A stretch of DNA of 64,000 bases, taken from the NCBI RefSeq assembly GCF_902833145.1, contig NZ_CADFEN010000002.1:62001-126000 (forward strand), in the 5' to 3' direction. The notes below the pieces were generated by a model. The model did no database searches and was not told the origin of the DNA. It worked only from the letters and a program-made list of their open reading frames with translations. This DNA comes from Burkholderia sp. BCC0506. Lineage in GTDB: Bacteria; Pseudomonadota; Gammaproteobacteria; Burkholderiales; Burkholderiaceae. The position numbers were made by a program, and so were the translations under genes. Below, in pieces: positions 1,921-27,897 of the stretch (position 1 is the stretch's first letter; every line of letters begins with the position of its first letter).

Positions 1921-2070
1921 GGCCACTCGTTCAGATCCATCGGGGTTCCATCGAATCGCCATACTACCGTAGTGCCCGCGCGACCGAACGGAGGCGGGCG
2001 AGGCCGCGCCGGTCGCCAACGCGCAGGCAGTCTTTCCGCGACCTTTCGGAAGTGCGGCCATGCGCCGTCC

Positions 2071-2144
2071 GACAGGGGAATACCCTGTCTTTTTTTTTCG
2101 AACTTGTTTTATGTATCATGACCTATCTTTTGCAACATGTACTA
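2071..2144 (+). promoter_or_regulatory. Composite regulatory module, copy 1 (unit A)
   Basis: The perfect dyad GACAGGGGAATACCCTGTC occupies 2071-2089 and is followed by a nine-T run. GACCTA is at 2120-2125 and the conserved CTA at 2142-2144, 19 nt after GACCTA. The same architecture recurs at 6036, 16895 and 23413. Here the -35-like hexamer is degenerate (TATGTA) and the half-dyad over it is imperfect. The first gene of the unit starts about 220 nt downstream, so the leader is long. Confidence 0.7.
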
Positions 2145-2363
2145 ATTAAGGGCGCCGGAAAATCCTTATCGGTAGAAGGCAATACGGCGCGTGTACAGGC
2201 AGGAATGCGAACCGGATGCCCGTGCCTCGTCCGAGGCAGGCGGGCCGGCGGCAGGTGAAGCGGAGCGGGATCGCATCCCGTCGTCAGATTCCGCGCGAGC
2301 GCAGGCAGCACGCCGTCGGGGCATGCCGCCGTTCGCGCCAATTTCAGGCGTCATTCATAGATC
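2145..2363 (+). other. Long structured 5' leader of unit A
   Basis: About 220 nt separate the inferred transcription start from the amine oxidase ATG, against 60-85 nt in the other three units. Two stem-loops are visible. One is at 2218-2245 (TGCCTC/GAGGCA with a GTCC loop, extended by GCCCG/CGGGC across a two-base bulge). The other is at 2266-2280 (CGGGAT/ATCCCG). No convincing small ORF with a ribosome site was found. The leader could affect translation or stability, but nothing identifies it as a known riboswitch. Confidence 0.35.
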
Positions 2364-3848
2364 ATGTCCAGGAAGTCATCCATCAGCGGGGCGGCCGACC
2401 TGCAGCGCAGGCAGTGGCTGAAGGTGGCCGGCGCATCGGTCGCGGCGGGCGGTCTCGCACTCGGCGGCACGCGGGCGAAGGCCGATGCGGCACCGGCCGC
2501 CGGCCATGAAGGCGACGTACTCGACGTCGCGATCGTCGGCGCCGGGCTGGCCGGCCTGACGGCCGCGCGCGACCTGCGCCACGCGGGCTGCGAATCCTTC
2601 GTCGTGCTCGAGGCGCGCGACCGCGTGGGCGGCCGCACGCTGAACTACGACGTGGGCGGCGGCTTCGTGACCGAAGTCGGCGGACAGTGGATCGGCCCGG
2701 GTCAGACGGCGGTCGCCGATCTCGCCCGCGAACTGGACGTCGGCACGTTCCCGAGCTACTACGCGGGCAAGACGGTGATTCTCGGCGGCGACGGGCGTGC
2801 GGAGATCGACCTGGAGGGCACGTTCGGCACCGACGAGGCCGTCGCGGCGAAGCTGAGCAGGTTGTCGCGCGACGTGCCGTCGGGGGCGCCGTGGACGTCG
2901 CCGAAGGCCGGCGAACTCGACCGGTTGTCGGTGGGCGACTGGCTCGCGACGCAGGGCATCAAGGCGGAGGACCGGATGGGCTGGAACGCGTCGATCTCGC
3001 TGTCGGGCGGCGTCGCGCCCGCGAAGATGGGGTTGCTGCACTTCCTGTCGATGATCAACTCCGCCGATTGCGATTACGCACAGCTCGACTCGATCAAGCA
3101 CAGCGCGCAGGAAACCCGCTTCGTCGGCGGCTCGCAGCTCCTGAGCATCCGGATGGCGCAGCAACTGGGCGACAAGGTGCGGCTGTCGTCGCCGGTGCGG
3201 CGGATCGTCGGCTGGGATCGCGACGTCGTCACGTTGCAGACCGATCGCGGCACGGTACGCGCGAAAAAGGTCGTGATGGCGCTGCATCCGGCGCTGTGCC
3301 ACCAGATGCAGTTCGACCCGCCGTTGCCGGAAAAGCGCCACGCGCTGCAACGCGCATGGCCGGCCCATTCGCCGGCGCGCAAGACGGCGATGGTCTACCG
3401 CCGCCCGTTCTGGCGCGACAAGGGCTTGAACGGCCACATCTTCCAGACCGACGGGCCGGTGTTCTGGGCCTACGACAATTCGCCGCCGGGCGGCGAGATC
3501 GGCGTGATCAACGCGTTCGTCCGGAATGCGCTGGTGCCGTCGGATCCGCAGGCCGCGAAGCAGATGCATATCGATCTCTATGCGCAGGCGTGGGGCGACG
3601 AAGCGCGCGCGCCGGTGTCGTATCACGATCGCGACTGGGGGCTCGCCGACCCGTGGACGATCACGTGCGTGTCGGCGATTCCACCCGGGTTCTGGAGCGC
3701 GCACGGCGACGCGCTGCGCGCGCCGTGCGGCAACCTGATCTGGTCGGGCACCGAGACCGCGACCATCTGGGCCGGCTACATGGACGGCGCCGTGCGAGCC
3801 GGACACCAAAGCGCGCTTCAGGCGCTCAATGCGCTGCGTCATGCTTAG
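2364..3848 (+). CDS. Tat-exported flavin amine oxidase/dehydrogenase (copy 1)
   Basis: A 494-residue flavoenzyme of the monoamine oxidase/nicotine oxidoreductase family, which oxidises amines to imines. A twin-arginine signal (RRQWLK, residues 15-20, then a hydrophobic Ala/Gly stretch) points to export of the folded FAD protein to the periplasm. The FAD dinucleotide motif VGAGLAGLTAARDL starts near residue 58 and ARDRVGGRT follows near 84. The C-terminal FAD contact SGTETA..WAGYMDGAVRAG is present. The stop overlaps the region just before a dihaem cytochrome c gene, so the electron acceptor is probably cytochrome c rather than O2, as known for NicA2-type enzymes. A paralogue lies at 14723. 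The substrate is unknown. Confidence 0.88.
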   Translation: MSRKSSISGAADLQRRQWLKVAGASVAAGGLALGGTRAKADAAPAAGHEGDVLDVAIVGAGLAGLTAARDLRHAGCESFVVLEARDRVGGRTLNYDVGGGFVTEVGGQWIGPGQTAVADLARELDVGTFPSYYAGKTVILGGDGRAEIDLEGTFGTDEAVAAKLSRLSRDVPSGAPWTSPKAGELDRLSVGDWLATQGIKAEDRMGWNASISLSGGVAPAKMGLLHFLSMINSADCDYAQLDSIKHSAQETRFVGGSQLLSIRMAQQLGDKVRLSSPVRRIVGWDRDVVTLQTDRGTVRAKKVVMALHPALCHQMQFDPPLPEKRHALQRAWPAHSPARKTAMVYRRPFWRDKGLNGHIFQTDGPVFWAYDNSPPGGEIGVINAFVRNALVPSDPQAAKQMHIDLYAQAWGDEARAPVSYHDRDWGLADPWTITCVSAIPPGFWSAHGDALRAPCGNLIWSGTETATIWAGYMDGAVRAGHQSALQALNALRHA

Positions 3849-3858
3849 GATCACGAAG

Positions 3859-4518
3859 ATGAAGAAACGGATTGTACTGATCACGGCATTGGTCGCGATC
3901 GGCGCGTTACTGGCGCTCTACGGCCCGACGCTGCTCGGCTTCTACCGTCTGCAGCGCCATATCGATACGGCCGCGCAAGCCGACGACGCCGACGGCGGGC
4001 CGTGGCCGCGCGTGACCGACGCGTGCATGGGCTGCCATGGCGTGAAGGGCACGTCGCTCAGTCAGGCGTATCCGAGCCTGGCCGGCCAGCCGGCGCAATA
4101 CGTGGCCGCGCAGCTTCACGCGTTTGCGAGCGGGCAACGCGCGAACCCGACGATGGGACCGCTCGCGATGACGATGAGCGAAGCCGAGATCACGCGTCTG
4201 GCCGGCTATTACGCGAAGCAAGCGCCGCTGGACAACCGCTATTTCAAGCCGGATGCACGACTGCGCACGAAAGGCGAGCAACTGGTGACGGGCGGCGCGT
4301 GCGCGGCCTGCCACGGCGCACGGTTGACGGGCCAGGCGCAGTTTCCGCGTCTGGCCGGGCAGGGCTACGACTACCTGCTCGCGCAGCTCGACGCGTTCGC
4401 GTCGGGTTCGCGCAGCGAAGCGACCGGCACGATGCAGCGCGTCGCGCAAGCGATGTCGGCGGACGATCGGGCGGCGGTGGCGACCTATCTGGCGAGCCTC
4501 GGCCCCGCCAGGCAGTGA
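3859..4518 (+). CDS. Membrane-anchored dihaem cytochrome c (copy 1)
   Basis: A 219-residue cytochrome c with an N-terminal uncleaved-looking membrane anchor (IVLITALVAIGALLALYG) and two haem-attachment motifs, CMGCH and CAACH, one in each of two tandem class-I domains. Distal-type methionines are available after each (TMGPLAMTM; TMQRVAQAM). I place the start at 3859, 9 nt after an AGGA. An earlier ATG at 3841 overlaps the oxidase stop. Its position directly behind a periplasmic flavin amine oxidase, repeated in the second cassette at 16202, suggests that it takes electrons from the flavin and passes them to the respiratory chain. Confidence 0.88.
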   Translation: MKKRIVLITALVAIGALLALYGPTLLGFYRLQRHIDTAAQADDADGGPWPRVTDACMGCHGVKGTSLSQAYPSLAGQPAQYVAAQLHAFASGQRANPTMGPLAMTMSEAEITRLAGYYAKQAPLDNRYFKPDARLRTKGEQLVTGGACAACHGARLTGQAQFPRLAGQGYDYLLAQLDAFASGSRSEATGTMQRVAQAMSADDRAAVATYLASLGPARQ

Positions 4519-4553
4519 ATCAACGGCAGCAATCGACCTTGGGAGTTCGACTC

Positions 4554-5228
4554 ATGGATTACAGATCACTTGTCCTTTGCCTTTCCAGCGCGACGCTGGC
4601 GGCGACGACCGGCATCTACGGCTTCAAGTTCGTCCGAAAACGCAATTTCCTGCTCGGCTTCGAATGGTGGATCGTGACGGTCTCCGCGTCCAACGCCGTG
4701 ATCTTCTTCGCGACCGAATCGCCGGTGTCGTACTTCATCTCTCACTTTCTCGACGCGTTTTCGCGCGGGTTCGGGATGCCGGTGATCGCGGTCGCGGGCC
4801 TGATGGCCGTCACGCACGGCTACCGGCCGTCGATGCGGCAGGACGTGACGCTGTTCGTGCTCGCGACGCTCGGGACGATCGCGCTCGTGGCCGGCGCGTT
4901 GCAGCACGCGTTGCCGTACTTCTACGTGGCGATGTGGACGCTGATGTCGATCTATCTCGCCGGTTTCGTGTGGCGGCTCGTGCGTGCCGGCCACGCGCTC
5001 CATGCGCTGACGACGACGCTGGGCCTCGTCGCTGCGCAGGCGATCGCATGCATCTACGATTTCTACAAGATCCCCGGCGAGGAAACCAACGTCGTGTTCA
5101 ATTTCTACGTGCTGGCGCTGCTGACCTGGTCGTACCTGACCGTCACGCTCTATTACGCTTATTGCGCGCTGGAGCGGGAGAAGGGGCGCGGTCGGGCCGA
5201 TGCCGGCGTGTTGTCGTATCCGAAATGA
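4554..5228 (+). CDS. Polytopic membrane protein of unknown function in unit A
   Basis: A 224-residue protein with about seven predicted membrane helices (near residues 6-26, 32-54, 72-88, 97-116, 121-143, 149-172 and 178-205) and a short charged C-terminal tail. GGGAG lies 8 nt before the ATG. I do not recognise the family and see no haem or metal motif beyond scattered His/Tyr residues. It follows the cytochrome gene by 35 bp, so a role in electron transfer, substrate passage or sensing for the amine oxidase is possible but unsupported. The second oxidase/cytochrome cassette has no counterpart. Confidence 0.7.
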   Translation: MDYRSLVLCLSSATLAATTGIYGFKFVRKRNFLLGFEWWIVTVSASNAVIFFATESPVSYFISHFLDAFSRGFGMPVIAVAGLMAVTHGYRPSMRQDVTLFVLATLGTIALVAGALQHALPYFYVAMWTLMSIYLAGFVWRLVRAGHALHALTTTLGLVAAQAIACIYDFYKIPGEETNVVFNFYVLALLTWSYLTVTLYYAYCALEREKGRGRADAGVLSYPK

Positions 5229-5301
5229 GTAGCGCTACTGATGAAAAAATGAAGGACCGAGCCGGTTGCCGGCCCGGCCGCGGCGATCGCGGAGCACGTG
5301 G

Positions 5302-5922
5302 ATGGACCGCGTTCGCCTGACCCGCGCCGAGCGGCGCGATGCGACGCGCGAACGCCTGATCGACGCCGCCCGCGCGATCTTCGCGGAGAACGGATACGCG
5401 GCCGCGAGCGTGGAAGACATTGCTGCTGCGGCAGGGCATACGCGTGGTGCGTTCTACTCGAACTTCCGCGGCAAGGCCGACGTGCTGTTCGAGTTGCTGC
5501 GACGCGATCAGGACGAGGCTGCCGCGGCATTGCAGCGGATCGTCGGTTCGCATGACCCGGCCGACGATGCGCAGCGCGCGCTGCTCGCGTACTGGCGAAG
5601 GGGCACGACGCAGCCGGCCTCGCAGCTGATGTGGCTCGACGCGCAGCTCCAGGCGGCGCGCGATCCGCTATTCCGTGCGCGGTTCGGTGCGTTGCTGCGC
5701 GACCGGCAGGCGCTCGCGATTGCGTGCATCGACGCGTATGCGGCGCGGGCCGGCGTATCGCCGTCGCTGCCCACGCCGGTGCTGGCGCTCGGCCTGACCG
5801 CGCTGTGCGACGGCATGCAGTCGCACAGCGCGGCCGATGCAGGCAGTACCGCCGGCCCGCTGGCCGATGCGGTGCTGGTCGGCTTCCTCGCGCATACGGT
5901 GTGCGACCGCGTGCGCGAATGA
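5302..5922 (+). CDS. TetR-family transcriptional regulator (unit A)
   Basis: A 206-residue regulator. The N-terminal helix-turn-helix reads SVEDIAAAAGHTRGAFYSNF and is followed by the usual KADVLFELL helix. The ligand domain is divergent, as is normal for the family. The start is set at ATG 5302, preceded by GGAG. An upstream TTG at 5266 would add an Arg-rich extension unlike TetR proteins. It lies 73 bp after the membrane protein gene in the same direction and just before module copy 2, so it is one of two TetR candidates for controlling the four modules. Confidence 0.88.
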   Translation: MDRVRLTRAERRDATRERLIDAARAIFAENGYAAASVEDIAAAAGHTRGAFYSNFRGKADVLFELLRRDQDEAAAALQRIVGSHDPADDAQRALLAYWRRGTTQPASQLMWLDAQLQAARDPLFRARFGALLRDRQALAIACIDAYAARAGVSPSLPTPVLALGLTALCDGMQSHSAADAGSTAGPLADAVLVGFLAHTVCDRVRE

Positions 5923-6035
5923 AGGTGCGCAGCAGCGGCGGCCGTGCGTTGTCGTGCGCTTGTATCAGGGCTGAAAGCCGATTGTCATGACGGGGCGGCG
6001 GCGTGCGGCGACGCACGTTCGATCATGCAGACGAA

Positions 6036-6105
6036 ACAGGGAATACCCCGTCTTTTTCTTTTCTTTATTTTTGTCATGATGACCTAACATTGTCACTATG
6101 TTCTA
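6036..6105 (+). promoter_or_regulatory. Composite regulatory module, copy 2 (unit B)
   Basis: ACAGGGAATACCCCGTC at 6036-6052 carries the GGGAATACCC core, with one base shifted relative to copies 1 and 4. A TTTTTCTTTTCTTT run follows. TTGTCA (6071-6076) overlaps the palindrome GTCATGATGAC. GACCTA is at 6081-6086 and CTA at 6103-6105, again 19 nt after GACCTA. The PhyH gene begins 62 nt further on and has a strong AAGGAG. Confidence 0.75.
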
Positions 6106-6167
6106 CTCAAGGCGTCGGCAGTGATCGATCGCGGCCGGCAGGGTTGGGACGAATAAGGAGATCTACG

Positions 6168-7001
6168 ATGGATGCACTCATGCGCAAGGCTTTCTTCGAG
6201 GACGGTGCGGTTCTCGTCGAAGGCGTACTCGATGCGGCGCAACTCGCGCAATGCCGCGCGGTGTACGACTGGGGGATGGAGAACCCGGGCCCGATGGCGA
6301 CGACGCTGCTCGACGGCACCGAATACCAGTCGCACAACGACAACGCGAACCCGTATGCGAAGACGCGGCTCGACGAACTGGTCGCCACGCTGCCGTTCGG
6401 CAAGCTGTTCGCCGACCTGTGGGGTTCGAAGCACGTGTGGTATTTCGCGGAAGAACTGTTCATGAAGGCCGGCGGCAAGAGCGCACGCTCGCCGTGGCAT
6501 CAGGACACGTCGTACCTGCCGTGGCAGGGGATGCATTTCGGCAACGCGTGGATCAGCTTCGAACACGTGCCGAAGCGCAACGCGCTCGAGATCGTGCGCG
6601 GCTCGCATCGCGGCGTGCGGCACGACGGCACGACGTTCCAGAACGCCGAGGATCCGACCGACCCGCTGCATGGCGGCGACGTGTGGCCGCGCCTGCCGGA
6701 CATCGAGGCCGAGCGCCGCGTGGCGCCCGATGCGTACGACATCCTGTCGTGGGAAACGAAGCCGGGCGATGTGCTGCTGCTCCATCCGGGCGTGCTGCAT
6801 GGCGGCGGCGCGGTCGATGCCGACTTCCCCGATCGCCACACGCTCGTGCTGCGCTTTTTCGGCGACGACGCGGTGTTCAGCCCGTTGCCCGACGAAAGCC
6901 GCTCGGGATTCACGCCGGCCGGCGTGCTGTTCGTCGAGGAGCTGGCCGGGCTGAAGGCCGGCGATCCGTTCCGCGCGCCGTGTTTCCGTCAACTCGTCTG
7001 A
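6168..7001 (+). CDS. Phytanoyl-CoA dioxygenase (PhyH) family protein
   Basis: A 277-residue Fe(II)/2-oxoglutarate oxygenase-like protein, probably cytoplasmic. The metal triad is visible as H111 and D113 (WHQDTSYLPW) and H211 (GVLHGGG). An arginine in DRHTLVLRF (about R223) is placed to bind 2-oxoglutarate. The start at ATG 6168 has AAGGAG 7 nt upstream, while the longer open frame from 6003 runs through the promoter module and is excluded. Known relatives hydroxylate acyl-CoAs, ectoine or natural products, so the substrate here is open. As first gene of unit B it probably hydroxylates the transported compound or a CoA/amine intermediate. Confidence 0.88.
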   Translation: MDALMRKAFFEDGAVLVEGVLDAAQLAQCRAVYDWGMENPGPMATTLLDGTEYQSHNDNANPYAKTRLDELVATLPFGKLFADLWGSKHVWYFAEELFMKAGGKSARSPWHQDTSYLPWQGMHFGNAWISFEHVPKRNALEIVRGSHRGVRHDGTTFQNAEDPTDPLHGGDVWPRLPDIEAERRVAPDAYDILSWETKPGDVLLLHPGVLHGGGAVDADFPDRHTLVLRFFGDDAVFSPLPDESRSGFTPAGVLFVEELAGLKAGDPFRAPCFRQLV

Positions 7002-7017
7002 ACCGGGAGAACGCATC

Positions 7018-7431
7018 ATGACAGCAACCCCGAAGCGGCAATCGATCGTGCCGGCTGCCTTCCAGCCGTGGTACGACGCATATCACTTCTCGCCGGCCAC
7101 ACGTGTCGGCGACACGATCTGGGTATCGGGCCAGGTTGGCCTCGATGCACGGATGCAGCCGGCCGACGGCGTGCAGGCGCAGGCGCGGATCGCGTTCGAG
7201 TGCCTGAAGGCGATCCTCGAGGAAGCCGGCGCGAGTCTCGCCGACGTCGTCGAGCTGACGACTTTCCACACGGATCTGCAGCGCGAGACCGAAGACTTCG
7301 CGGCGGTCAAGGACGTGTATTTCCCGAACCGTTACCCGTCGTGGACGGCGGTCGGCGTCACGCAACTGGCGCTGCCGGGATTGTGCGTCGAGATTCGTGC
7401 GGTGGCGGTGGCCGGGTCCGGCAAGGACTGA
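7018..7431 (+). CDS. RidA/YjgF family protein
   Basis: A 137-residue protein of the RidA (YjgF/YER057c/UK114) family. Members are trimeric and hydrolyse reactive enamine/imine intermediates or act in specialised deaminase steps. Family features seen are VGDTIWVSGQVGLDA, the FECLKAILEEAGASLADVVE helix region and the C-terminal GLCVEIRAVAVAG. GGGAG precedes the ATG, 16 bp after the PhyH stop. Amine oxidases generate imines, so a RidA protein in this regulon is chemically sensible. It has no signal peptide, so it would act on cytoplasmic imines. Confidence 0.9.
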   Translation: MTATPKRQSIVPAAFQPWYDAYHFSPATRVGDTIWVSGQVGLDARMQPADGVQAQARIAFECLKAILEEAGASLADVVELTTFHTDLQRETEDFAAVKDVYFPNRYPSWTAVGVTQLALPGLCVEIRAVAVAGSGKD

Positions 7432-7554
7432 TCGGAGGCACGACGGTTTTCGCCGGATCTGCGTTTCATATGCATCGCAGTACTGACGAAAAAACGAGAA
7501 CAGGGATCGATCGGCAGGCGGCCGGGCGGAACCCCGGCCGGCCCGGATCAGGGA

Positions 7555-7588
7555 GCGATCGTCGTCGTCGGCTGACGACGACGATCGC
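7555..7588 (+). repeat. Perfect 15-bp stem-loop between ridA-like and DUF1329 genes
   Basis: Arms GCGATCGTCGTCGTC (7555-7569) and its exact complement (7574-7588) enclose the four-base loop GGCT. No T-run follows, so it is not a classical terminator. It lies within the 212-bp gap between the RidA gene and the DUF1329 gene and could be an mRNA processing or stability barrier that separates enzyme genes from transporter genes. Confidence 0.6.
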
Positions 7589-7643
7589 AGCAAATGCGTC
7601 TCGTCCCGGGCGGGCGAGCGAAGGCGGAGCACGAAGGAGAACC

Positions 7644-9011
7644 ATGATGAAGAAGCATCGTTTCTGGACCACGTCCGCGATCGCGGCCGCTGCATGTGTC
7701 GCGATCGGCACCGCCGTCGCGGCGGACGACCTGACGCCGGCCGGCGCCGAGCGCTCGGCGAGCAAGGACGGCGCGGTGCCGGCCTATGCGGGCAAGCAAT
7801 CGCCCGACGCCGGCTGGGAGTGGGGCAAGGTGCGCGGCGATTTCTGGAAGCATCGCAACGAGAAGCCGCTCTACTCGATCGACGCGGCGAACGTCGACAA
7901 GTACGCGGACAAGCTGTCGCCCGGCCAGGTCGCGCTGATCAAGCAGAAGAAGGGCTACCGGATGGACGTCTACCCGTCCCATCGCGAGTGCCAGTTGCCG
8001 GATGCCGCCGAGCAGAACTCGAGGGCGAACCTCACCGCGGCGAAGCTGGATGCGAGCGGCGAGAACCTCGCATCGGCCGCGTTGCCGGGCGTCCCGTTCC
8101 CGCAACCGAAGAGCGGCATCGAAGCGATCCTGAACTACGAGATGCGCTATCGCGGCGAAGGCGTCGAATGGGCGCAGGTCGCCACGAGCATTTCGCCGCG
8201 CCCCGGCAGCAGCGAATGGATCGACGCGGTCGGTCCGCAGACGTTCTACTTCCCGTCGGCCAAGCTCGGCAAGACGTCGCCGCAGGAGGTCGACCAGTTG
8301 AGCGCCGCCGTCTACTTCCAGATGAACTCGCCGGCCGCACTGGCCGGGCAGGCCTTCGTCCAGCGGCAGTACTTCAACAAGGATTCGGAAACCTACTACT
8401 ACTTCCCGGGCCAGCGCCGCGTGCGACGCATGCCGGCCTATACGCACGACGCGCCGTTGATCGGCTTCGAGAACCAGTATCTGATCGACGAAGGCAACAT
8501 GATCAACGGTTCGCTCGACCGTTTCAACTGGAAGCTGGTCGGCAAGAAGGAAATGCTCGTCCCGTACAACGCGTTCGGCATGTACCGGTTCAAGAGCAAG
8601 CTGCACGACGTCGCGACGCCCGACGGCCTCGCCGCCGCGAACCGTCGCTACGAGGCGCATCGCGTGTGGGTCGTCGAAGCGACGCTGAAGCCGAGCGCGC
8701 GGCACGTCGCGTCGAAGAAGGTGTTCTATCTCGACGAAGACAGCTGGCTCGCGCTCGTCGGCGAAGACTACGACGCGCAGGGCAAGTTGTGGAAGGTGCG
8801 GGAAAGCTACCCGATTCCGGTATGGGAGCTCGGCGGTACCTGCGACAACGAACCGCTCGCGCAGTACGACATGATCAACGGCCGCTATGTGTTCGATGCG
8901 TCGTCGATCGGCCAGGGCAAGGACATTCGCTGGTTCGGTCAGGCCGACGATCCGCGCTTCAAGCAGGATTTCTACACGGCGGAATCGCTGCGCTCGGTCA
9001 GCGAACGGTGA
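7644..9011 (+). CDS. DUF1329 family exported protein
   Basis: A 455-residue protein with an N-terminal signal peptide (FWTTSAIAAAACVAIGTAVAA). The body carries DUF1329 features: the LTPAGAERSASKDGAVPAY start, NQYLIDEGNMINGSLDRFNW, and the long C-terminal part ending YTAESLRSVSE. DUF1329 proteins resemble the LolA/LolB lipid-carrier fold and usually sit beside DUF1302 and RND genes, as here. I infer a periplasmic carrier for a hydrophobic ligand. AAGGAGA precedes ATG 7644, and a second in-frame ATG follows at once. Confidence 0.88.
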   Translation: MMKKHRFWTTSAIAAAACVAIGTAVAADDLTPAGAERSASKDGAVPAYAGKQSPDAGWEWGKVRGDFWKHRNEKPLYSIDAANVDKYADKLSPGQVALIKQKKGYRMDVYPSHRECQLPDAAEQNSRANLTAAKLDASGENLASAALPGVPFPQPKSGIEAILNYEMRYRGEGVEWAQVATSISPRPGSSEWIDAVGPQTFYFPSAKLGKTSPQEVDQLSAAVYFQMNSPAALAGQAFVQRQYFNKDSETYYYFPGQRRVRRMPAYTHDAPLIGFENQYLIDEGNMINGSLDRFNWKLVGKKEMLVPYNAFGMYRFKSKLHDVATPDGLAAANRRYEAHRVWVVEATLKPSARHVASKKVFYLDEDSWLALVGEDYDAQGKLWKVRESYPIPVWELGGTCDNEPLAQYDMINGRYVFDASSIGQGKDIRWFGQADDPRFKQDFYTAESLRSVSER

Positions 9012-9089
9012 CGATCGCCGGCTGACGGGTACAAGGACCGGCGCACGCAACGATCGCGCGCCGGCGTCGAACAGGGGCGGAGGTGGATC

Positions 9090-10934: not shown

Positions 10935-11002
10935 CGGCGGCGGGCGGCAAGTGGCAGGTGGCAGGTGGCGTATGCCACCGGAATACATGAAGGGGTAACG
11001 TC

Positions 11003-13363: not shown

Positions 13364-13394
13364 AGCCGACGAACGTTCCGACGGAGATCCAGTC

Positions 13395-13679: not shown

Positions 13680-13710
13680 TGCCCGCGCATACCACTACGG
13701 AGGTTTTTCC

Positions 13711-14679: not shown

Positions 14680-14722
14680 GTTGAATTCATCGAGAAAAAC
14701 GAGGAAGCATGGAGCACTTGAC

Positions 14723-16201: not shown

Positions 16202-16873
16202 ATGAAACGAACCTGGATGATCGGCGCGGCACTGGTGTTGGCGGCTGGCGTCGCGGCAGGCGTGCTGTACGGGCCCGATCTCGTCGACGGCATGCGTTAC
16301 CAGAAGGCGATGGCCGCGATCGGCGAAGCCGACAAGGGCAACGGCGGCGCGTGGCCGCAGCCGCAGGAGACGTGCTTCTTCTGCCATGGCGCGCACGGGC
16401 AGTCGCAGAACGCGTGGTATCCGTCGCTGTCGGGCCAGCCGGCCACGTATATCGCCGCGCAACTGCGCGCGTTCGCCACGGATCAGCGCCGCAACGCCTA
16501 CATGGGGCCGCTTTCGCGCGAACTCGACGACGCGAGGATCGCCGCGCTGGCGACCTATTTCGCGCGACAGGCGCCGGCGCGCAACGAGGCCGTGCCGGCC
16601 GACGCGGCGCTCGACAAGCGGGGCATGGCGCTCGTGGCGGCGCGAAGCTGCAGCGCATGTCACGGCGCGGCGCTGACGGGCAAGGATCCGGCGCCGCGCC
16701 TCGCCGGCCAGGGGCAGCTTTACCTGGAAGCGCAGCTGGCGGCGTTCCGCTCGGGCGAGCGGCACGATCCGACCGGCGCGATGAACGCGTTGGCCGCGAC
16801 GTTGTCGGGCGACGACACGCGTGCCGTTGCGCACTATCTGGCCGGCCTGTCGCCGGACGGGGCGGCCAGATGA
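16202..16873 (+). CDS. Membrane-anchored dihaem cytochrome c (copy 2)
   Basis: A 223-residue paralogue of the cytochrome at 3859. It has an N-terminal anchor (MIGAALVLAAGVAAGVLYG) and two CxxCH sites, CFFCH and CSACH. The ATG directly follows the TGA of the amine oxidase, with GGGGAGG inside the end of that gene, so translation is coupled. The repeated oxidase-cytochrome pairing in two units strongly suggests a dedicated electron acceptor for each flavoenzyme. Confidence 0.9.
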   Translation: MKRTWMIGAALVLAAGVAAGVLYGPDLVDGMRYQKAMAAIGEADKGNGGAWPQPQETCFFCHGAHGQSQNAWYPSLSGQPATYIAAQLRAFATDQRRNAYMGPLSRELDDARIAALATYFARQAPARNEAVPADAALDKRGMALVAARSCSACHGAALTGKDPAPRLAGQGQLYLEAQLAAFRSGERHDPTGAMNALAATLSGDDTRAVAHYLAGLSPDGAAR

Positions 16874-16894
16874 TGCGCGAAAGGCGTCAGGGCC

Positions 16895-16962
16895 GGGAAT
16901 ACCCTGCCTTTTTCTTTACCGTTTACTTTGTCATAGTGACCTAAGATTGGTAATGTGTTCTA
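16895..16962 (+). promoter_or_regulatory. Composite regulatory module, copy 3 (unit C)
   Basis: GGGAATACCC is at 16895-16904. The outer dyad bases are weaker than in copies 1 and 4. A CCTTTTTCTTTACC run follows. TTGTCA (16929-16934) lies over the inverted repeat GTCATAGTGAC. GACCTA is at 16938-16943, TAATGT is a possible -10 with a 17-bp spacer, and CTA is at 16960-16962, 19 nt after GACCTA. The next ATG is 85 nt downstream. Confidence 0.75.
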
Positions 16963-17046
16963 CAAAAGAACACGCCGGATACGAAGTTGCAGTACCCGAC
17001 CTCGAACCGAACCGGTTCCCGACAATTCACGTTTCAGGAGACAAGC

Positions 17047-18177
17047 ATGGCTAAGCACCCCGTCGTCGTTTATGGCGCAAGCGGTTACACCGGCATGTTG
17101 ATCATGGACTGGCTGATCGACCAGAACATCCCGTTCACGGCGGTCGCGCGCAATGCGGGCCGCGCGAAGGAAATGATGGCGCAGCGCGTCGTGCGGCTCG
17201 AATCCGCGCAATACGAAATCATCGAAGCCGAGCACGACGTCGATGCGCTCGTGAAGGCGTTCCGCGGTGCGAAGGTGGTGTGCAACACGGTCGGGCCGTT
17301 CTCGAGCTTCGGGCTCGTCGGCGTCGAGGCCGCGCTGAAGGCCGGCTGTCACCACCTCGATACGACCGGCGAACAGTCGTATATCCGTGCGGTGCGCGAC
17401 CAGTTCGGCGAGCAGTACCGCCAGGCCGGCCTGCTGGTGTCGTCGTCGAACGCGTACATGTACACGTTCGCGGAGATCGCCGCCGAGCTCGCGCTCGAAA
17501 CGCCGGGCATCGACGCGCTGGAGACGGCCACGCTGACGCGCGGCCCGCGCGGCGCGGCCGGCGTGAGCATCGGCTCGACCGCGACGATCTTCGACGGCGC
17601 GCGCCACGAGTCCTGCTACCTGTGGGAGAAGGCGCTCGTGCCGCACGCCGCGGACGCATCGTTCACCGTCGCGACGCCCGAGCTGATGCAGCCGGTGTTC
17701 TGCCTGCCGTGGGGCGGCACGTCGCTGCCGGTCTACTTCGAGCACGATGCGCGCGTGCGCAGCTGCATCTCGTGCGTGGGCTTCTACGACAACAACGTGA
17801 TGAAGCTGGTGCACCAGTTCGGGCAGAAGTGGGAAGCCGAATACAAGCACCTGCCGCGCGAGCAGCAGGACGAAGTGCTGAAGCAGGTCGTCGCGTCCAC
17901 CACGCCGACGATGCCGCCGCGCGAGCGCACGACGATCCAGCGCAGCGTCGACTTCGCGATCGGCCGCGGCCAGCTCGCGGCGGTGCGCGCGACCGTGCAC
18001 GGTGTCACGCCGTACATCTCGACGGGCGCGATTCACGCGGCCGGCGCGCTCAAGCTGCTCGACGGCGAGACCGCGCGCACGGGCTTCGCGTCCGGCTCGA
18101 AGGCATTCGGCCATCGCTACCTGCTCGGCTTCCTCGAACAGCGCGGGCTCGCGCGCGCCACCGTCACGCAACTGTGA
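17047..18177 (+). CDS. Saccharopine dehydrogenase-like NAD(P)-binding reductase
   Basis: A 376-residue protein of the saccharopine dehydrogenase/trans-acting enoyl reductase family. The N-terminal nucleotide motif is VVYGASGYTGML, and GPFSSFGLVGVEAALKAGCHHLDTTGE is the family's second conserved region. True lysine-pathway enzymes sit with lysine genes. This one leads a CoA ligase/thiolase operon, so a role in reducing or dehydrogenating an acyl or amino intermediate is more likely. CAGGAG precedes ATG 17047, and the longer open frame from 16987 is rejected for lack of a ribosome site. It is the first gene of unit C. Confidence 0.82.
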   Translation: MAKHPVVVYGASGYTGMLIMDWLIDQNIPFTAVARNAGRAKEMMAQRVVRLESAQYEIIEAEHDVDALVKAFRGAKVVCNTVGPFSSFGLVGVEAALKAGCHHLDTTGEQSYIRAVRDQFGEQYRQAGLLVSSSNAYMYTFAEIAAELALETPGIDALETATLTRGPRGAAGVSIGSTATIFDGARHESCYLWEKALVPHAADASFTVATPELMQPVFCLPWGGTSLPVYFEHDARVRSCISCVGFYDNNVMKLVHQFGQKWEAEYKHLPREQQDEVLKQVVASTTPTMPPRERTTIQRSVDFAIGRGQLAAVRATVHGVTPYISTGAIHAAGALKLLDGETARTGFASGSKAFGHRYLLGFLEQRGLARATVTQL

Positions 18178-18219
18178 CGGCCGCCGCCGCACCGGACCAG
18201 ACCCAACGGAACTTGTGAC

Positions 18220-19773
18220 ATGGCCATTATCGATTTCTACGACCGCGGCTGGCGGCTCAATCCCGACGGCATCGCGTACATCCAGGACGAGCGCAACTAC
18301 ACGTTCCAGGAGATCGGCGAGCTGTCGTGCCGCATCGCCAACGGCTTGCTCGCCGCCGGCTTCGCGAAGGAAGCGAAGGCGGCGGTGTGGGCCGACAACG
18401 ACGTGATCGGCTGGAGCTGCGCGCTCGGCATGTGGCGCGCGGGGCTCGCGTACATCCCGGTGAACGGCCGCAACGCGGTGGCCGAGAATCAATACGTGCT
18501 CGATGCGTTCGACTGCGAAGTGCTGTTTTTCCATCAGGCGTTCGCGGCCGCGATCGACGCGCTGCGGCCCAGCCTGCCGAAGATCCGGCTGTGGGTGTGT
18601 CTCGACGCCGACCTGCCGTGGGCGCCGTCGCTGGCATCGTGGAGCGAGCACCAGCCGGCGACGCCGCCGGTCGTCGATTACGCGATGGACGACGTCGTCG
18701 CGCTGTCGGCCACGGGCGGCACGACGGGCGCGCCGAAGGGCGTGATGAACACGCACCGTTCGCTGCAGACGTACTTCGCGCAATTCATGATCGCGATGAC
18801 GTACGGCGATGCGCGCCCGGTCAATCTCGCCGCGGCGCCGATGACGCACACGGCCGGCATGATGTCGCTGCCGTGCACCGCGCGCGGCGGCACGGTGGTC
18901 GTGCTGCCGAAACCCGACCCGGCGCTGTTGCTCGGCGCGATCGTCAAGCATCGCGTGACCGAGTTCTTCCTGCCGCCGACCGTGATCTACCGGCTGCTCG
19001 ACATCCCCGGCATCGAGCAGGTCGATTTCTCGTCGCTGCGCTACTTCCTGTACGGCGCCGCGCCGATGTCGGTCGAGAAGCTCAAGCGCGCGATCGACGT
19101 GTTCGGCCCGGTGATGACGGGCGGCTACGGGCAGACCGAGGCGCCCGCGTCGATCTCGTACCTGACGCCGGCCGAGCACTTCGTCGACGGCAAGCTCGCA
19201 TCCGACACGCGGCTCGCGTCGGTCGGCCGCCCGAACCCGCTGGTGCGCGTCGAGATCGTCGGCGAGCGCGGCGAGCTGCTGAAGCAGGGCGAGACCGGCG
19301 AGATCTGCGTGCGCGGCGACCTCGTGATGAAGGGCTACTACCGCGCGCCGGACAAGACGGCCGAAACCATCGTCGACGGCTGGCTGCATACCGGCGACAT
19401 CGGTCATCTCGATCAAGACGGCTATCTGCACATCACCGACCGCAAGAAGGACATGATCATCAGCGGCGGCTTCAACGTCTATCCGAGCGAGATCGAGCAG
19501 GTGATCTGGGCGCACCCCGCCGTGCAGGACTGCGCGGTGATCGGCGTGCCCGACGACAAATGGGGCGAGGCGGTGAAGGCCGTGGTCGAGCTCAATGCCG
19601 GCCAGCAGGTGAGCGCGGAAGAACTCGTCGCGCTGTGCAAGGAGAAGCTGGGCTCGGTGAAGGCGCCCAAGAGCGTGGACTTCGTCGCCGCGCTGCCGCG
19701 CAGCACGGCCGGCAAGGTGCTGAAGAAGGACCTGCGCGAACAATACTGGCAGGGTCGGCAACGCAGGATCTGA
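18220..19773 (+). CDS. AMP-dependent acyl-CoA synthetase/ligase
   Basis: A 517-residue enzyme of the ANL family that activates a carboxylic acid through an acyl-AMP to the CoA thioester. Motifs in order: the P-loop-like ATGGTTGAPKG (about residue 165), the GYGQTEAP adenine/aryl-binding segment (about 305), GWLHTGDIGHLDQDGY (about 387), the hinge DRKKDMIISGGFN, and the catalytic lysine in STAGKVLKKDLR near the C-terminus. It follows the reductase gene by 42 bp. The pocket gives no clear substrate; medium or long chain or cyclic acids are all possible. Confidence 0.9.
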   Translation: MAIIDFYDRGWRLNPDGIAYIQDERNYTFQEIGELSCRIANGLLAAGFAKEAKAAVWADNDVIGWSCALGMWRAGLAYIPVNGRNAVAENQYVLDAFDCEVLFFHQAFAAAIDALRPSLPKIRLWVCLDADLPWAPSLASWSEHQPATPPVVDYAMDDVVALSATGGTTGAPKGVMNTHRSLQTYFAQFMIAMTYGDARPVNLAAAPMTHTAGMMSLPCTARGGTVVVLPKPDPALLLGAIVKHRVTEFFLPPTVIYRLLDIPGIEQVDFSSLRYFLYGAAPMSVEKLKRAIDVFGPVMTGGYGQTEAPASISYLTPAEHFVDGKLASDTRLASVGRPNPLVRVEIVGERGELLKQGETGEICVRGDLVMKGYYRAPDKTAETIVDGWLHTGDIGHLDQDGYLHITDRKKDMIISGGFNVYPSEIEQVIWAHPAVQDCAVIGVPDDKWGEAVKAVVELNAGQQVSAEELVALCKEKLGSVKAPKSVDFVAALPRSTAGKVLKKDLREQYWQGRQRRI

Positions 19774-19798
19774 ACCTGCTTCATACGGATTCCATACG

Positions 19799-21040
19799 AT
19801 GAGCAACATCTACATCGCCGGCATCGCGATGACCGTGTTCGGCCGGCATCTCGATCGCAGCCTCGACGATCTGGCGAGAGAGGCGCTGCAGCGCGCATTG
19901 CGGGACGCCGGCTGCCACGCCGATGCGATCCGCGCCGCGTTCTACGCGGGCATCACCAACGGCGCGCTGCAGGGGCAATTGTCGATCCCCGGCCAGGTCG
20001 TGTTCAGCAAGATCGGCATCGAGGGCATTCCGGTGTTCAACGTCGAGAACGCGTGCGCGTCCGGCAGCACGGCCGTGCACCTCGCCGTGCGGCAGTTGCA
20101 GTCGGGCGCATGCGACGTCGCGCTCGCCCTCGGTGCGGAAAAGATGAACGTCGCGGACAAGGCGAAATCGTTCGCGCTGTTCGAAGCCGGCTGGGACGTG
20201 TCGCGCGTCGACGAGAATTTCGCGACGCTCGCGCGGCTCGGCGAAGGGATCGAGCCGCCGCCCGGCTCGGAATCCGACCGCCCGTACAGCCGCTTCATGA
20301 AGATCTACGCGGCGATGTGCCGGCATCACATGCACACGTACGGCACGACCCAGCGGCAGATTGCCGCCGTGTCGGCGAAGAACCACGGGCATTCGGTGCA
20401 CAACCCGTACTCGCAGTTCCGCCAGCCGTTCACGATCGACGAGGTGCTGGCGGCCGCGCCGATCACGTATCCGATCACGTTGCCGATGTGCGCGCCGCTG
20501 TCGGACGGCGCGGCGGCCGCGATCCTCTGCACGGAGGAAGGGCTGGAACGCATCGGCGCCGATCGCAGCCGCTGCATCCGGATCGCCGCGAGCGTGATCC
20601 GCAGCTTCACGCGGCGGCGCATCGACGAGCCGCACAAGCACATCGGCCGGCTCGCCGCGCTGCAGGCGTACGAGCTGGCGGGCGTGGGGCCGGAGGACAT
20701 GGACGTGGCCGAAGTGCACGACGCATCGGCGATGGGCGAGATCATCCAGGCCGAGAACCTCGGCTTCGTGCCGCTCGGCGAAGGCGGGCCGGCCGCCGAG
20801 CGCGGCGAGTTCACGCTCGGCGGGCGCATCCCGATCAACACGTCGGGCGGCCTCGAATCGAAGGGCCATCCGCTCGGCGCGACCGGTATCGGGCAACTGT
20901 ACGAGCTGGTCACGCAGTTGCGCGGCGAAGCGGGCGCGCGGCAGGTGGACGGCGCGCGTCATGCGATCCAGGAGAACGGCGGCGGCTTGCAGGGCGTCGA
21001 AGAGGCAGCGCTGGCGATTCACATTCTCAGCAGGGACTGA
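19799..21040 (+). CDS. Thiolase (SCP-x-like acetyl-CoA acyltransferase)
   Basis: A 413-residue thiolase expected to cleave a 3-ketoacyl-CoA. The nucleophilic cysteine lies in ENACASGSTAVHLAV (about residue 84). EVHDASAMGEI and NTSGGLESKGHPLGATG supply the catalytic His. The usual C-terminal CxGGG is replaced by ENGGG, as in SCP-x-type thiolases, which often act on branched or sterol-like substrates. It starts 26 bp after the ligase gene, in the same unit. The combination with ligase and reductase argues for chain shortening of a non-standard acyl group. Confidence 0.87.
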   Translation: MSNIYIAGIAMTVFGRHLDRSLDDLAREALQRALRDAGCHADAIRAAFYAGITNGALQGQLSIPGQVVFSKIGIEGIPVFNVENACASGSTAVHLAVRQLQSGACDVALALGAEKMNVADKAKSFALFEAGWDVSRVDENFATLARLGEGIEPPPGSESDRPYSRFMKIYAAMCRHHMHTYGTTQRQIAAVSAKNHGHSVHNPYSQFRQPFTIDEVLAAAPITYPITLPMCAPLSDGAAAAILCTEEGLERIGADRSRCIRIAASVIRSFTRRRIDEPHKHIGRLAALQAYELAGVGPEDMDVAEVHDASAMGEIIQAENLGFVPLGEGGPAAERGEFTLGGRIPINTSGGLESKGHPLGATGIGQLYELVTQLRGEAGARQVDGARHAIQENGGGLQGVEEAALAIHILSRD

Positions 21041-21051
21041 CGGAGGCGGAC

Positions 21052-22536
21052 ATGGGCGACACACACGGCGCGATGGCGCGCGGGCAAGTAGCGCCGGCAG
21101 GGCAGGCGATGCGACAGGCGCCGGGTGGGGTCGGCGCGGCGGCGGCGATGCAGGCGGCGGGCGCCGAGGCGGCCGGGCCGCTCGCGCGCTGGGGCGAGGA
21201 AATTCGCACCGACGCCGCGTTGCGGAAGTATCGTCCCGTCGGCGGATGGATCGAGCCGCCCGAGCATGCGCAACCGGCGCTCGAAGGCGACGTGCAGGCG
21301 GACGCGATCGTCGTCGGCGCGGGCTTTGCCGGCCTGTCCACCGCGCTGGAACTGGCCGCGCGCGGCGCAAGCGTCGTCGTGCTCGAACGCGAGTTCGCGG
21401 GCTTCGGTGCGAGCGGGCGCAACGCCGGCTATCTTGCCGGCGGCCAGGGGCTCGAATACGAGCTGTTTCTCAAGCGGGTCGGCCACGAACAGGCGAAGCG
21501 GATCGTCGGCTTCTACGACGAAGGCGTCGCGTACGTCGAACGCAAGCTCGCCGAGTACGCGATCGACTGCGACTACCGCGCGTCGGGCATCATTCGCGCG
21601 GGCGTGCATCCGTCGCAGGAGAAGCGCCTGCGCGAGAGCATGGCCACCGGCATCGAGCTCGGCTCGCCCGCCGAGTTCCTCGATGGCGCGGCGATGCGCG
21701 AACGCGGGATTCCGCCGGCGTTCCTGTTCGGCGCATACGTGCCGGGCGGCGGCACGCTCGATCCGGGCAAGTACGTGACCGGCTTGCGGCGCGCGGCGCT
21801 CGCGGCCGGTGTGAAGCTTTACGAAAACACCGCGCTGCTCGATTTCGACGCGGGTAAGACGGTGCGCGTGCGCACCGCGCGCGGCAGCGCGAGTGCGCCG
21901 GTGCTGGTGCTCGCGACCAATGCGTACACGCCGCAACTCGGGCTGCTCGGCGACAAGGTGATGCCGCTGCGCGTGTCGGCGCTCGAAACCGAGCCGCTGT
22001 CCGACGCGCAGCTCGCGGCGCTCGGCTGGCCGAACCGGGAGGGCATCGTCACGTCGCACCTGACGATGGAGAGCCACCGCCTGACCGCGCGCAACACGCT
22101 GCTGCTGACGACCAAGCGGCTGCATTACGTGTACGGCTCGCAGACGCCGAACGTGCCGGACGACGACGCGTATCGCGCGCTGCTGAAGACGTTGCGCGCG
22201 CGTTTTCCGTCACTCGGCGACGTGCCGGTGCGCGCCTGCTGGAGCGGCTACATCTCGTTCGCGGGCGATGCGTTGCCGGTGGTCGGCGCGGCCGGCGCAC
22301 ACGGCAACGTGTTCTACACGGCCGGGTGTTCGGGGCACGGCGTCGGCACGCAATCGCTGATCGGGCGCGTGCTGGCCGAGCGCATTCACGACGGACGGTC
22401 GCCGCTGCTCGACGCGTTGACGCACAAGACGCCGTCGGTGCCGCCCGAGCCGCTGCGATGGTGTGCGATGACCGCGATGCTCGGCGTCGCGAACCTGCTC
22501 GACGAACGCGTGAACCGAAAGGTGCGGCCGGTGTAG
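21052..22536 (+). CDS. FAD-dependent oxidoreductase (DAO family)
   Basis: A 494-residue flavoenzyme of the DAO fold, close in pattern to gamma-glutamylputrescine/sarcosine-type amine oxidases. The FAD motif IVVGAGFAGLSTALELAARG begins near residue 84, and EREFAGFGASGRNAGYLAGG follows. The C-terminus has GHGVGTQSLIGRVLAERI. The first 40 residues form an unusual Ala/Gly-rich extension before the family's normal start (RWGEEIRTDAALRKY), so initiation may actually be later. GGAGG precedes ATG 21052. It has no Tat signal, so it would oxidise a C-N bond in the cytoplasm, unlike the two exported enzymes. Confidence 0.85.
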   Translation: MGDTHGAMARGQVAPAGQAMRQAPGGVGAAAAMQAAGAEAAGPLARWGEEIRTDAALRKYRPVGGWIEPPEHAQPALEGDVQADAIVVGAGFAGLSTALELAARGASVVVLEREFAGFGASGRNAGYLAGGQGLEYELFLKRVGHEQAKRIVGFYDEGVAYVERKLAEYAIDCDYRASGIIRAGVHPSQEKRLRESMATGIELGSPAEFLDGAAMRERGIPPAFLFGAYVPGGGTLDPGKYVTGLRRAALAAGVKLYENTALLDFDAGKTVRVRTARGSASAPVLVLATNAYTPQLGLLGDKVMPLRVSALETEPLSDAQLAALGWPNREGIVTSHLTMESHRLTARNTLLLTTKRLHYVYGSQTPNVPDDDAYRALLKTLRARFPSLGDVPVRACWSGYISFAGDALPVVGAAGAHGNVFYTAGCSGHGVGTQSLIGRVLAERIHDGRSPLLDALTHKTPSVPPEPLRWCAMTAMLGVANLLDERVNRKVRPV

Positions 22537-22703
22537 CGGCGCACGCGATCGTCGCGACGCGCGAACGCGCATCCGGCTGGCCCGCCCGGTGGAAGGGCGG
22601 CTCGATGGAAAATGAAGCGCGCATCGGGTATAGTCGTTGGCGCTCCGTAAGGTGCGGAGCGTCCATTCGACGAAGCCGAAACGCCATTTTCACGACGAAC
22701 ACG

Positions 22704-23378
22704 ATGACAGTGTCCAACGAGCCGCGCAGCACGAGAAAGCGGCGCACTTCGACTGCCACCGCCGCAGCGGGCAATACCGACGGCTTGCGGGCGCAAGGCC
22801 TGCGCACGCGCAACACGATCATTCGCGTCGCGCGCAAGCTGCTGCTCGAAGGCGGCCCGCTCGAATTCTCGCAGCGCGCGGTTGCCGCGGCCGCGGGCAT
22901 CAGCGTCAGCAATCTGCAGTACTACTTCCCGACCCGGATCGCCGTGTTGCGGGCCGTGATCGAGCCGGTCATCGACAGCTATCTCGACGACATGAAGCGT
23001 GCGATGAGCAGCGAAGCGTCGCCGCGCGACGTGTTCGAGGAGATCATGCAGCGCTCGATCTCCGACGCGAAGGATGCCAAGTACAACGCACTGTTCCGGC
23101 ATTTGCTGTCGTTCGCGGCCACCGATGCCGAATGCTTCAAGCTGTACGACGAGTGGTACACGACGCTCACGCGCGACCTCGCGCAACTGCTGCGCGCCGT
23201 CAATCCGGCGTTCAGCGCGGCCGACAGCCGGCATGCGGCGACGATGCTGATCGCGCTGGCCGACGGCCTCGCGATGCAGTACGGCACCGGCCGGCACACG
23301 CAGGCGCTCGATGCGTATTTCATCGCGACGTCGCGCGCGATCGCCTTCGGCACGCTGACGGCGCCCGCGGGTAAATAG
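22704..23378 (+). CDS. TetR-family transcriptional regulator (unit C)
   Basis: A 224-residue regulator with the HTH FSQRAVAAAAGISVSNLQYYF at about residues 50-72 and a basic, disordered N-terminus (RSTRKRRTSTATAAAG). It is 167 bp from the FAD enzyme gene. A TATAGT at 22628 could be its own -10. It ends just before module copy 4, mirroring the first TetR gene, which ends just before copy 2. The start is uncertain by some tens of codons, because an earlier ATG exists at 22604. Confidence 0.85.
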   Translation: MTVSNEPRSTRKRRTSTATAAAGNTDGLRAQGLRTRNTIIRVARKLLLEGGPLEFSQRAVAAAAGISVSNLQYYFPTRIAVLRAVIEPVIDSYLDDMKRAMSSEASPRDVFEEIMQRSISDAKDAKYNALFRHLLSFAATDAECFKLYDEWYTTLTRDLAQLLRAVNPAFSAADSRHAATMLIALADGLAMQYGTGRHTQALDAYFIATSRAIAFGTLTAPAGK

Positions 23379-23412
23379 CGGCGCGATCCGCCGCGGCGGC
23401 CACGCGAACCGA

Positions 23413-23485
23413 GACAGGGGAATACCCTGTCTTTTTTTTGCTTCCTGTGTTTGTCATGATGACCTATGTTTGGTATGTATTACTA
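23413..23485 (+). promoter_or_regulatory. Composite regulatory module, copy 4 (unit D)
   Basis: The perfect dyad GACAGGGGAATACCCTGTC (23413-23431) is identical to copy 1. An eight-T run follows. TTGTCA (23451-23456) lies over GTCATGATGAC, and a 17-bp spacer leads to TATGTA (23474-23479). GACCTA is at 23461-23466 and CTA at 23483-23485. The dyad centre is about 64 bp upstream of the inferred start. This is the clearest copy. Confidence 0.8.
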
Positions 23486-24971: not shown

Positions 24972-24977
24972 CCCTCC

Positions 24978-26010: not shown

Positions 26011-26029
26011 CCCACGAACGATCGCGACG

Positions 26030-27892: not shown

Positions 27893-27897
27893 GCGCG

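Follow-up and report, generated by a model that had tools for sequence, protein, structure and literature searches.

In a 64,000-nt stretch of the genome of Burkholderia sp. BCC0506 (contig NZ_CADFEN010000002.1, positions 62,001 to 126,000; hereafter, the window), four plus-strand gene units are each preceded by a similar composite module made up of a dyad, a T-rich tract, and a conserved core. This raises the question of what these modules do and which protein reads them. The modules, designated P1 to P4 in their order along the window, are real and specific. We propose that they are promoters of a cluster-specific regulon and that TetR2, a TetR-family protein encoded by the last gene of unit 3, binds the dyad and activates RNA polymerase from upstream. 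Taken as a whole, this reading is in our estimation marginally probable, and both the binding of TetR2 and the sign of its action are predictions from sequence.

Occurrence and distribution of the module

The composite pattern GGGAATACCC-N28-38-GACCTA-N16-CTA was found exactly four times in the window, at the places listed in an earlier note made from the DNA letters alone, and in none of 100 dinucleotide shuffles. The gaps between GGGAATACCC and GACCTA were 34, 32, 33, and 33 bp in P1, P2, P3, and P4, respectively, giving the form GGGAATACCC-N(32-34)-GACCTA-N16-CTA. The near-fixed spacing described in that note was thus borne out, including the distance from GACCTA to CTA, which was exact in all four modules. 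GACCTA-N16-CTA alone had four matches in the window against 0.01 expected. All four GGGAATACCC copies lie on the plus strand and, as had been claimed, each module is oriented toward the gene that opens a plus-strand unit. A weight-matrix scan detected only these four modules at 12 bits or more, in agreement with the statement that the module was not seen elsewhere in the window; the matrices were trained on modules chosen for exact GGGAATACCC and ACCTA, and those columns are invariant by construction.

The host genome (7.29 Mb) was searched in the same way. GGGAATACCC alone was present in 15 copies, 11 of them outside the window, compared with 3 for the reversed control. With the T-run attached (GGGAATACCCNGNCTTTTT) and up to two mismatches allowed, the matches were the four modules only, and pattern searches at this tolerance yielded no fifth module copy in the host genome. 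When up to three mismatches were allowed in the core pattern, the four sites matched with zero or one mismatch and five further matches had three mismatches; the reversed core pattern gave 20 matches under the same conditions. The core pattern therefore exceeded its control only at the four sites, and a general promoter signature was ruled out.

Beyond the host, the composite was present in 29 of 65 Burkholderia genomes, with no match to the reversed pattern in any of the 65. Four copies were found in 19 of the positive genomes, three in 1, two in 1, and one in 8; six of the eight one-copy genomes (those included in the family sample) gained a second site once T was allowed for the G of GACCTA. 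In the family sample, the TNACCTA pattern was found in 41 of 398 genomes and 6 of 25 genera, with two control matches in total. A scan of 84,980 species with the exact pattern gave 52 stretches, all from Burkholderia, Paraburkholderia, Caballeronia, Cupriavidus, or Pandoraea.

In the fetched loci (designated L with a number), 88 of 97 distinct modules scoring at least 30 bits were followed within 1.5 kb by a labelled cluster gene, in all 88 cases on the strand of the module. The other nine modules had no labelled gene within 1.5 kb, and in six of them the locus ends there. The tie of the sites to these units and their orthologues was therefore upheld, and in rearranged clusters the module headed AmOx1, AmOx2, PhyH, RidA, DUF1329, DUF5938, MP1, or ACAD1 operons. 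A dispersed repeat lying beside unrelated genes was ruled out, since 55 of the 60 exact matches face a same-strand labelled cluster gene. As for the remaining five, one (L098) has a tandem TetR gene on the opposite strand 825 bp away, two adjoin TetR2 with no labelled gene ahead (L071 and L075), and two are cut by the locus end, one adjoining TetR2 (L109) and one in a locus with no labelled gene (L111). The units had been described as a previously unlinked regulon. This description has to be corrected: they are adjacent operons of a single catabolic cluster of roughly 28 kb, not scattered genes, and the module stays with the operon heads when the cluster is rearranged.

Anatomy of the module

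The logo of 105 distinct modules, selected by GGGAATACCC and ACCTA and not by the T-tract or CTA, gave the consensus GGACAGGGAATACCCTGTCTTTTTnTT, followed by a variable stretch and TTTGTCATnATGACCTAnnnTTGGYAnnRTGTWCTA. T occupied the five positions of the T-tract in 93–99% of the modules, the gap between GGGAATACCC and nACCTA was 32, 33, or 34 bp in 21, 63, and 21 modules, respectively, and CTA stood at offset 16 in 102 of the 105. The TTGTCA-like element named in the earlier note held up apart from unit 1, which has TATGTA there. The core was found to consist of two 17-bp direct repeats, TTTGTCATnATGACCTA and TTTGGYAnnRTGTWCTA, with a period of 19 bp. In self-alignment, the core showed a mean of 10.0 identities out of 17 at a shift of 19, compared with 2.7–5.7 at shifts of 12–18 and 20–23, and none of 2000 column permutations aligned as well. 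This direct repeat had been overlooked, as had the terminator-like look of the dyad and T-run and the co-occurrence with TetR2 described below.

The dyad had been called a perfect 19-bp dyad, which proved too strong. GACAGGGGAATACCCTGTC, present in units 1 and 4, has 7-bp arms (GACAGGG/CCCTGTC) flanking GAATA, with eight of nine pairs formed if it is centred, and the arms are broken in units 2 and 3. Variants that are still palindrome-like were found among the modules (GGGTATTCCC, GGGATTACCC, GGGATAACCC, and GGAAATTCCC). From the end of the palindrome it is about 18 bp to the first core repeat and at least 28 bp to GACCTA.

A hairpin followed by a T-run could also be an intrinsic terminator closing each operon, with the core alone being regulatory. 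P1 and P4 fold as textbook terminators with 7- and 9-bp stems (−13.6 and −15.7 kcal/mol) followed by the T-run; judged as terminators, these two were strong (z below −4.5), P3 was moderate (z −1.9), and P2 was weak (−6.3 kcal/mol, z −1.1). Across the modules, the median fold energy of the dyad was −13.1 kcal/mol, with only 7 of 105 weaker than −4 kcal/mol, and the nearest upstream labelled gene was on the same strand in 72 of 97. However, that gene was divergent in 18 of the 97, some of them before MP1, AmOx1, or PhyH, so that there is no known transcript to end at these places, and 7 had no labelled gene upstream; the dyads thus do not as a general rule stand where an upstream transcription unit ends. 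Conservation also argues against termination as the function: the arms were fully paired in only 46 of 105 modules, and the loop and inner GGG/CCC were kept while the arms varied (the inner 10-mer being a selection criterion). In addition, the dyad stands at an almost constant distance from the core, and its presence goes with that of TetR2 from genome to genome. We therefore regard this explanation as very improbable, while the dyad may double as a terminator in the tandem contexts (72 of 97).

One degraded module, consisting of GGGAAAACCC, an intact GACCTA, and a broken CTA, was observed at L124:10090 (−). It is oriented opposite to an intact module 134 bp away and may be the remnant of a divergent operon since lost.

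TetR2 and its predicted mode of action

TetR2 (E ≤ 1e-35) was found in 43 of the 398 family genomes, including all 41 that were positive for the pattern. The other two genomes (G145 and G399) have variant modules beside TetR2 that the search pattern missed, one form with an intact dyad and a GTCCTA core and the other with GGGATTACCC. Two module-bearing genomes of the Burkholderia set, G054 and G057, lie outside the family sample; G054 has TetR2 in its module locus, and none was found on the 6-kb contig of G057. For comparison, DUF5938 (E ≤ 1e-170, counted by hand) was found in 41 genomes, 34 of them with the pattern, leaving 7 pattern genomes without DUF5938 and 7 DUF5938 genomes without the pattern. 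The co-occurrence of module and TetR2 makes TetR2 the likely controller of the modules. The earlier note knew of no regulator described with this site. A full-text literature search with the 10-mer GGGAATACCC agreed in that none of the 14 papers returned seemed, from its title and the opening of its abstract, to deal with a bacterial regulator, and neither the site nor the cluster turned up among the records listed in our searches; the note had nevertheless passed over TetR2.

Within the 350-aa open frame at 22326–23378, TetR2 matched PF00440 (TetR_N, helix-turn-helix) with 27.5 bits against a cut-off of 24 and PF13977 with 34 bits against a cut-off of 27. The AlphaFold2 model (mean predicted local distance difference test score, 82.9) has nine helices and an all-helical TetR-like fold. 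The 50 Foldseek matches listed for the Protein Data Bank (PDB) were mostly named TetR-family or transcriptional regulators, with a best E value of 1.5e-5, query template-modelling scores of 0.54–0.73, and at most 22% identity. In an alignment of the window protein with 50 relatives, the recognition region AGISvSNLQYYFPTR was nearly unchanged, although overall identity fell to 47%, as would be expected if the operator is fixed. We consider it probable from these comparisons that TetR2 binds the dyad.

Other candidate regulators were rejected. TetR1 of unit 1 was ruled out because 10 of the 43 genomes with TetR2 had no match to it at E ≤ 1e-25. A histidine kinase and an OmpR-type response regulator are encoded divergently from unit 1 (window 101–2061, minus strand). 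In module loci, for which stretches of up to about 20 kb were examined, this pair was not seen in many cases (e.g., L062, L126, L127, L131, L137, and L138); in several other loci it lies beside apparent RND efflux genes, judged by eye, and the 10 kb preceding the window showed no such genes. The tandem (double) TetR encoded in paralogous clusters was rejected as a reader of the core: a match was found in 16 of 49 genomes (one partial) and none in the genome of the window, and no core precedes the RidA/DUF1329 genes that adjoin the tandem TetR.

The position of the dyad bears on what TetR2 would do there. The order of the elements is fixed, with a palindromic operator (GACAGGG-W4-CCCTGTC), the T-tract, and a core containing the presumed −35/−10 region. 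The −10 element is probably TAnWWn starting in CTA, a register that survives in three clear cores lacking the dyad (TATATG, TACAAA, and TATTTG). With this register, transcription is predicted to start some 10 nt past CTA, which puts the centre of the dyad near −73; the earlier note had placed the start just after CTA and the dyad at −62 to −65. TetR2 would bind the operator about 73 bp upstream of the likely start and contact RNA polymerase, with the T-tract possibly serving the C-terminal domain of the alpha subunit, and it would control its own gene, which lies within unit 3. Because the operator lies outside the −35/−10 zone at a near-constant spacing, an activator acting from upstream, as already suggested in the note, appears to be the most likely reading.

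The main rival is that TetR2 represses: from about −73 it would block an activator, or the contact of the alpha subunit with the T-tract, and a pathway metabolite such as an acyl-CoA would release it. TetR genes of catabolic clusters usually encode repressors. The same co-occurrence data apply, TetR2 sits in the cluster it would control, and some of the closest PDB folds among the 50 listed are titled repressors, including BkaR and Thermus thermophilus FadR with acyl-CoA. Typical TetR operators, however, overlap the RNA polymerase core site, which this palindrome, about 18 bp before the first core repeat, does not, and the near-constant gap (32–34 bp in all 105 modules) is more natural for a contact with polymerase. 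We regard such blocking as possible but the less probable sign, and activation by TetR2 as rather probable. Activation by TetR2 from −73, if borne out, would be a further case of a TetR-family activator, activators being in the minority in that family.

Dyad and core were found to be separable. Ten fetched loci contain DUF5938 clusters without TetR2 within the stretch, and seven of these come from genomes without TetR2 (G048 twice, G107, G243, G264, G313, and G396). None of the ten had a dyad-like site of 8 bits or more, and a clear core was kept before DUF5938 in L142, L147, and L148 (52, 41, and 32 bits, respectively). Six others had no core of 14 bits. Cores with a poor dyad or none were also found in TetR2 genomes (L160, L165, and L170). 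The presence or absence of TetR2 among clusters, and of the dyad among cores, provides a natural experiment for separating the operator from the core promoter. TetR2-less clusters were also seen often to carry a protein of about 460 aa with two TetR domains in one chain. Copies lie at L122:4949–6325 (−) and L142:18549–19901 and in L190, L191, L192, L141, L193, and L194; their identities to the L122 copy fall into groups of about 61–66%, 54–58%, and 49–51%.

A second factor probably reads the core, since the core is conserved beyond the need of a basal promoter, is present without the dyad in some loci, and forms a direct repeat. It may even be that the true switch is a dedicated alternative, extracytoplasmic function (ECF)-like sigma factor that uses the core as its promoter, or an unlinked AraC/XylS-like activator that binds there, with TetR2 only modulating. 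In line with this are the spacer, which hardly varies (102 of 105 modules have CTA at offset 16), the restriction of the core to this regulon and its persistence in dyad-less loci, and the 17-bp direct repeats, a symmetry expected of AraC-type activators. On the other hand, no sigma-factor gene was found among the window open reading frames scanned with Pfam, which were not all of them, unlinked genes not having been searched; in the same scan the sole AraC-type gene found (46724–47740) lies about 23 kb from the last module. Most ECF −35 elements contain AAC, which GACCTA lacks, and AraC-type pairs are usually 15–17-bp tandem repeats with a period of about 21 bp next to the −35 element, compared with the 19-bp period here. 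This explanation is in our view unlikely. A broader, tentative proposal is a two-factor promoter class, in which a TetR-family activator at GACAGGG-W4-CCCTGTC would act via the T-tract together with a dedicated reader of the 17-bp tandem core, so that the four operons, which would take up and oxidise a hydrophobic amine, would fire together only with both; the dyad-less cores suggest that the two halves evolve separately.

Several observations weigh against the proposed reading. The co-occurrence counts lack phylogenetic independence, and some linkage is to be expected of every gene in a cluster. In Pandoraea, a second cluster (L143/L172) encodes a TetR2 of 62% identity but lacks the module. 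Three of the ten TetR2-less loci come from genomes with TetR2 elsewhere, namely, L142 (G049), L144 (G325), and L149 (G399), the last being a short contig. The core before DUF5938 in L140 is weak (22 bits) and has lost CTA, and G243, a genome without TetR2, has one weak module-like match of 18 bits with no dyad score (L183). No −35 element fits well, and two −10 registers are possible. Promoters of B. cenocepacia have been reported, by one method, without a conserved −35 element (PMC8407463), so sequence does not suffice to fix the −35 element. Among TetR proteins, most of those studied are described as repressors (PMC3511530).

Gene units and related systems

The features of the modules and the four units are listed in Table 1. 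The best solved relatives of the unit 1 amine oxidase were monoamine and putrescine oxidases, and DUF1329, DUF1302, and MMPL are the uptake genes of the cluster, which also contains genes for CoA steps. The gene set suggests that the cluster catabolises a hydrophobic amine. An anonymous 28-kb catabolic cluster, present in at least five genera, would thereby become a defined regulon with a predicted operator, TetR2 as its candidate regulator, and a geometry that can be tested.

Table 1. Modules and genes of the cluster in the window
Feature	Position	Strand	Remarks
Module P1, GGGAATACCC to CTA	2076–2144	+	
Dyad of P1, GACAGGGGAATACCCTGTC, predicted TetR2 operator	2071–2089	+	GGGAATACCC 2076–2085; RNA fold −13.6 kcal/mol
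T-tract of P1	2090–2098	+	
Core of P1	2109–2144	+	Repeats 2109–2125 and 2128–2144; GACCTA 2120–2125; CTA 2142–2144; predicted −10 from 2143
Unit 1	2364–5922	+	Pfam
FAD amine oxidase	2364–3848	+	Pfam
Cytochrome c, two cytochrome c stretches	3829–4518	+	Pfam
Membrane protein MP1	4554–5228	+	No Pfam match
TetR1	5266–5922	+	Pfam
Module P2, GGGAATACCC to CTA	6039–6105	+	
Dyad of P2, imperfect arms	6033–6052	+	GGGAATACCC 6039–6048; RNA fold −6.3 kcal/mol
T-tract of P2	6053–6057	+	
Core of P2	6070–6105	+	Direct repeats 6070–6086 and 6089–6105
Unit 2	6168–16873	+	Pfam
PhyH	6168–7001	+	Pfam
RidA	7018–7431	+	Pfam
DUF1329	ends 9011	+	Pfam
DUF1302	9090–10934	+	Pfam
MMPL	11003–13363	+	Pfam
YCF48-like	13522–14679	+	Pfam
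FAD amine oxidase, second	14630–16201	+	Pfam
Cytochrome c, second	16202–16873	+	Pfam
Module P3, GGGAATACCC to CTA	16895–16962	+	
Dyad of P3, one arm mismatch	16890–16908	+	GGGAATACCC 16895–16904; RNA fold −11.1 kcal/mol
T-tract of P3	16909–16913	+	
Core of P3	16927–16962	+	Direct repeats 16927–16943 and 16946–16962
Unit 3 enzymes	17047–22536	+	Pfam, NCBIfam
DUF5938/saccharopine-dehydrogenase-like	17047–18177	+	
Acyl-CoA synthetase	18220–19773	+	
Thiolase	19799–21040	+	
DAO-type FAD oxidoreductase	about 21115–22536	+	
TetR2, final gene of unit 3, predicted to regulate P1 to P4	22704–23378	+	Pfam TetR_N, TetR_C_6
Module P4, GGGAATACCC to CTA	23418–23485	+	
Dyad of P4, GACAGGGGAATACCCTGTC	23413–23431	+	GGGAATACCC 23418–23427; RNA fold −15.7 kcal/mol
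T-tract of P4	23432–23439	+	
Core of P4	23450–23485	+	Direct repeats 23450–23466 and 23469–23485
Unit 4, putative transcript extent	23552–29938	+	Pfam
Acyl-CoA dehydrogenase, first gene of unit 4	23552–24841	+	Pfam
Histidine phosphatase	25285–26010	+	Pfam
APH-type phosphotransferase	26030–27061	+	Pfam
SDR	27110–27892	+	Pfam
Acyl-CoA dehydrogenase, second	28694–29938	+	Pfam

BkaR, T. thermophilus FadR, and RutR are TetR-family local regulators of catabolic clusters. TetR2 resembles them in its TetR_N domain, its all-helical TetR fold, the location of its gene inside the cluster, and its palindromic candidate operator. It differs in that several operons each have a copy of the operator, placed not over the promoter but about 33 bp ahead of a separate conserved core, and regulators of this type showed at most 22% identity to TetR2 among the 50 Foldseek matches listed. 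The Vibrio LuxR/HapR group comprises TetR-type activators that act through RNA polymerase and are global quorum-sensing regulators with many sites. Like them, TetR2 is a TetR-fold protein with predicted sites upstream of the core promoter; unlike them, it would be a local, putative activator, the position of the operator being the sole hint of activation. The nearest analogues thus appear to be local TetR regulators of catabolic clusters and, for geometry, TetR-type activators, of which HapR is described as a TetR-family homodimer (PMC10328515).

SphR and its targets sphA and sphBCD are described as the sphingosine regulon of Pseudomonas aeruginosa (PMC3900636, PMC11893366). The present regulon is similar in its small size, a periplasmic oxidase with a cytochrome c partner, a predicted porin, and direct-repeat promoter sites, and differs in its gene set and in that no AraC gene was found in units 1–4, SphR being an AraC-family protein with the half-site TGNCCSNNRNNSNCC repeated 6–8 bp apart (PMC3900636). 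A SphR-type site was ruled out by inspection, because TGACCT of the core has T where the reported TGNCCSNNRNNSNCC consensus requires S (PMC3900636).

Two further observations were made on genes of the window and the fetched clusters. MP1 recurs in many clusters beside the genes for cytochrome c and amine oxidase. Near the end of the window, two adjoining minus-strand genes (59800–60570 and 60762–61199) encode proteins with PA-IIL type fucose-binding lectin domains.

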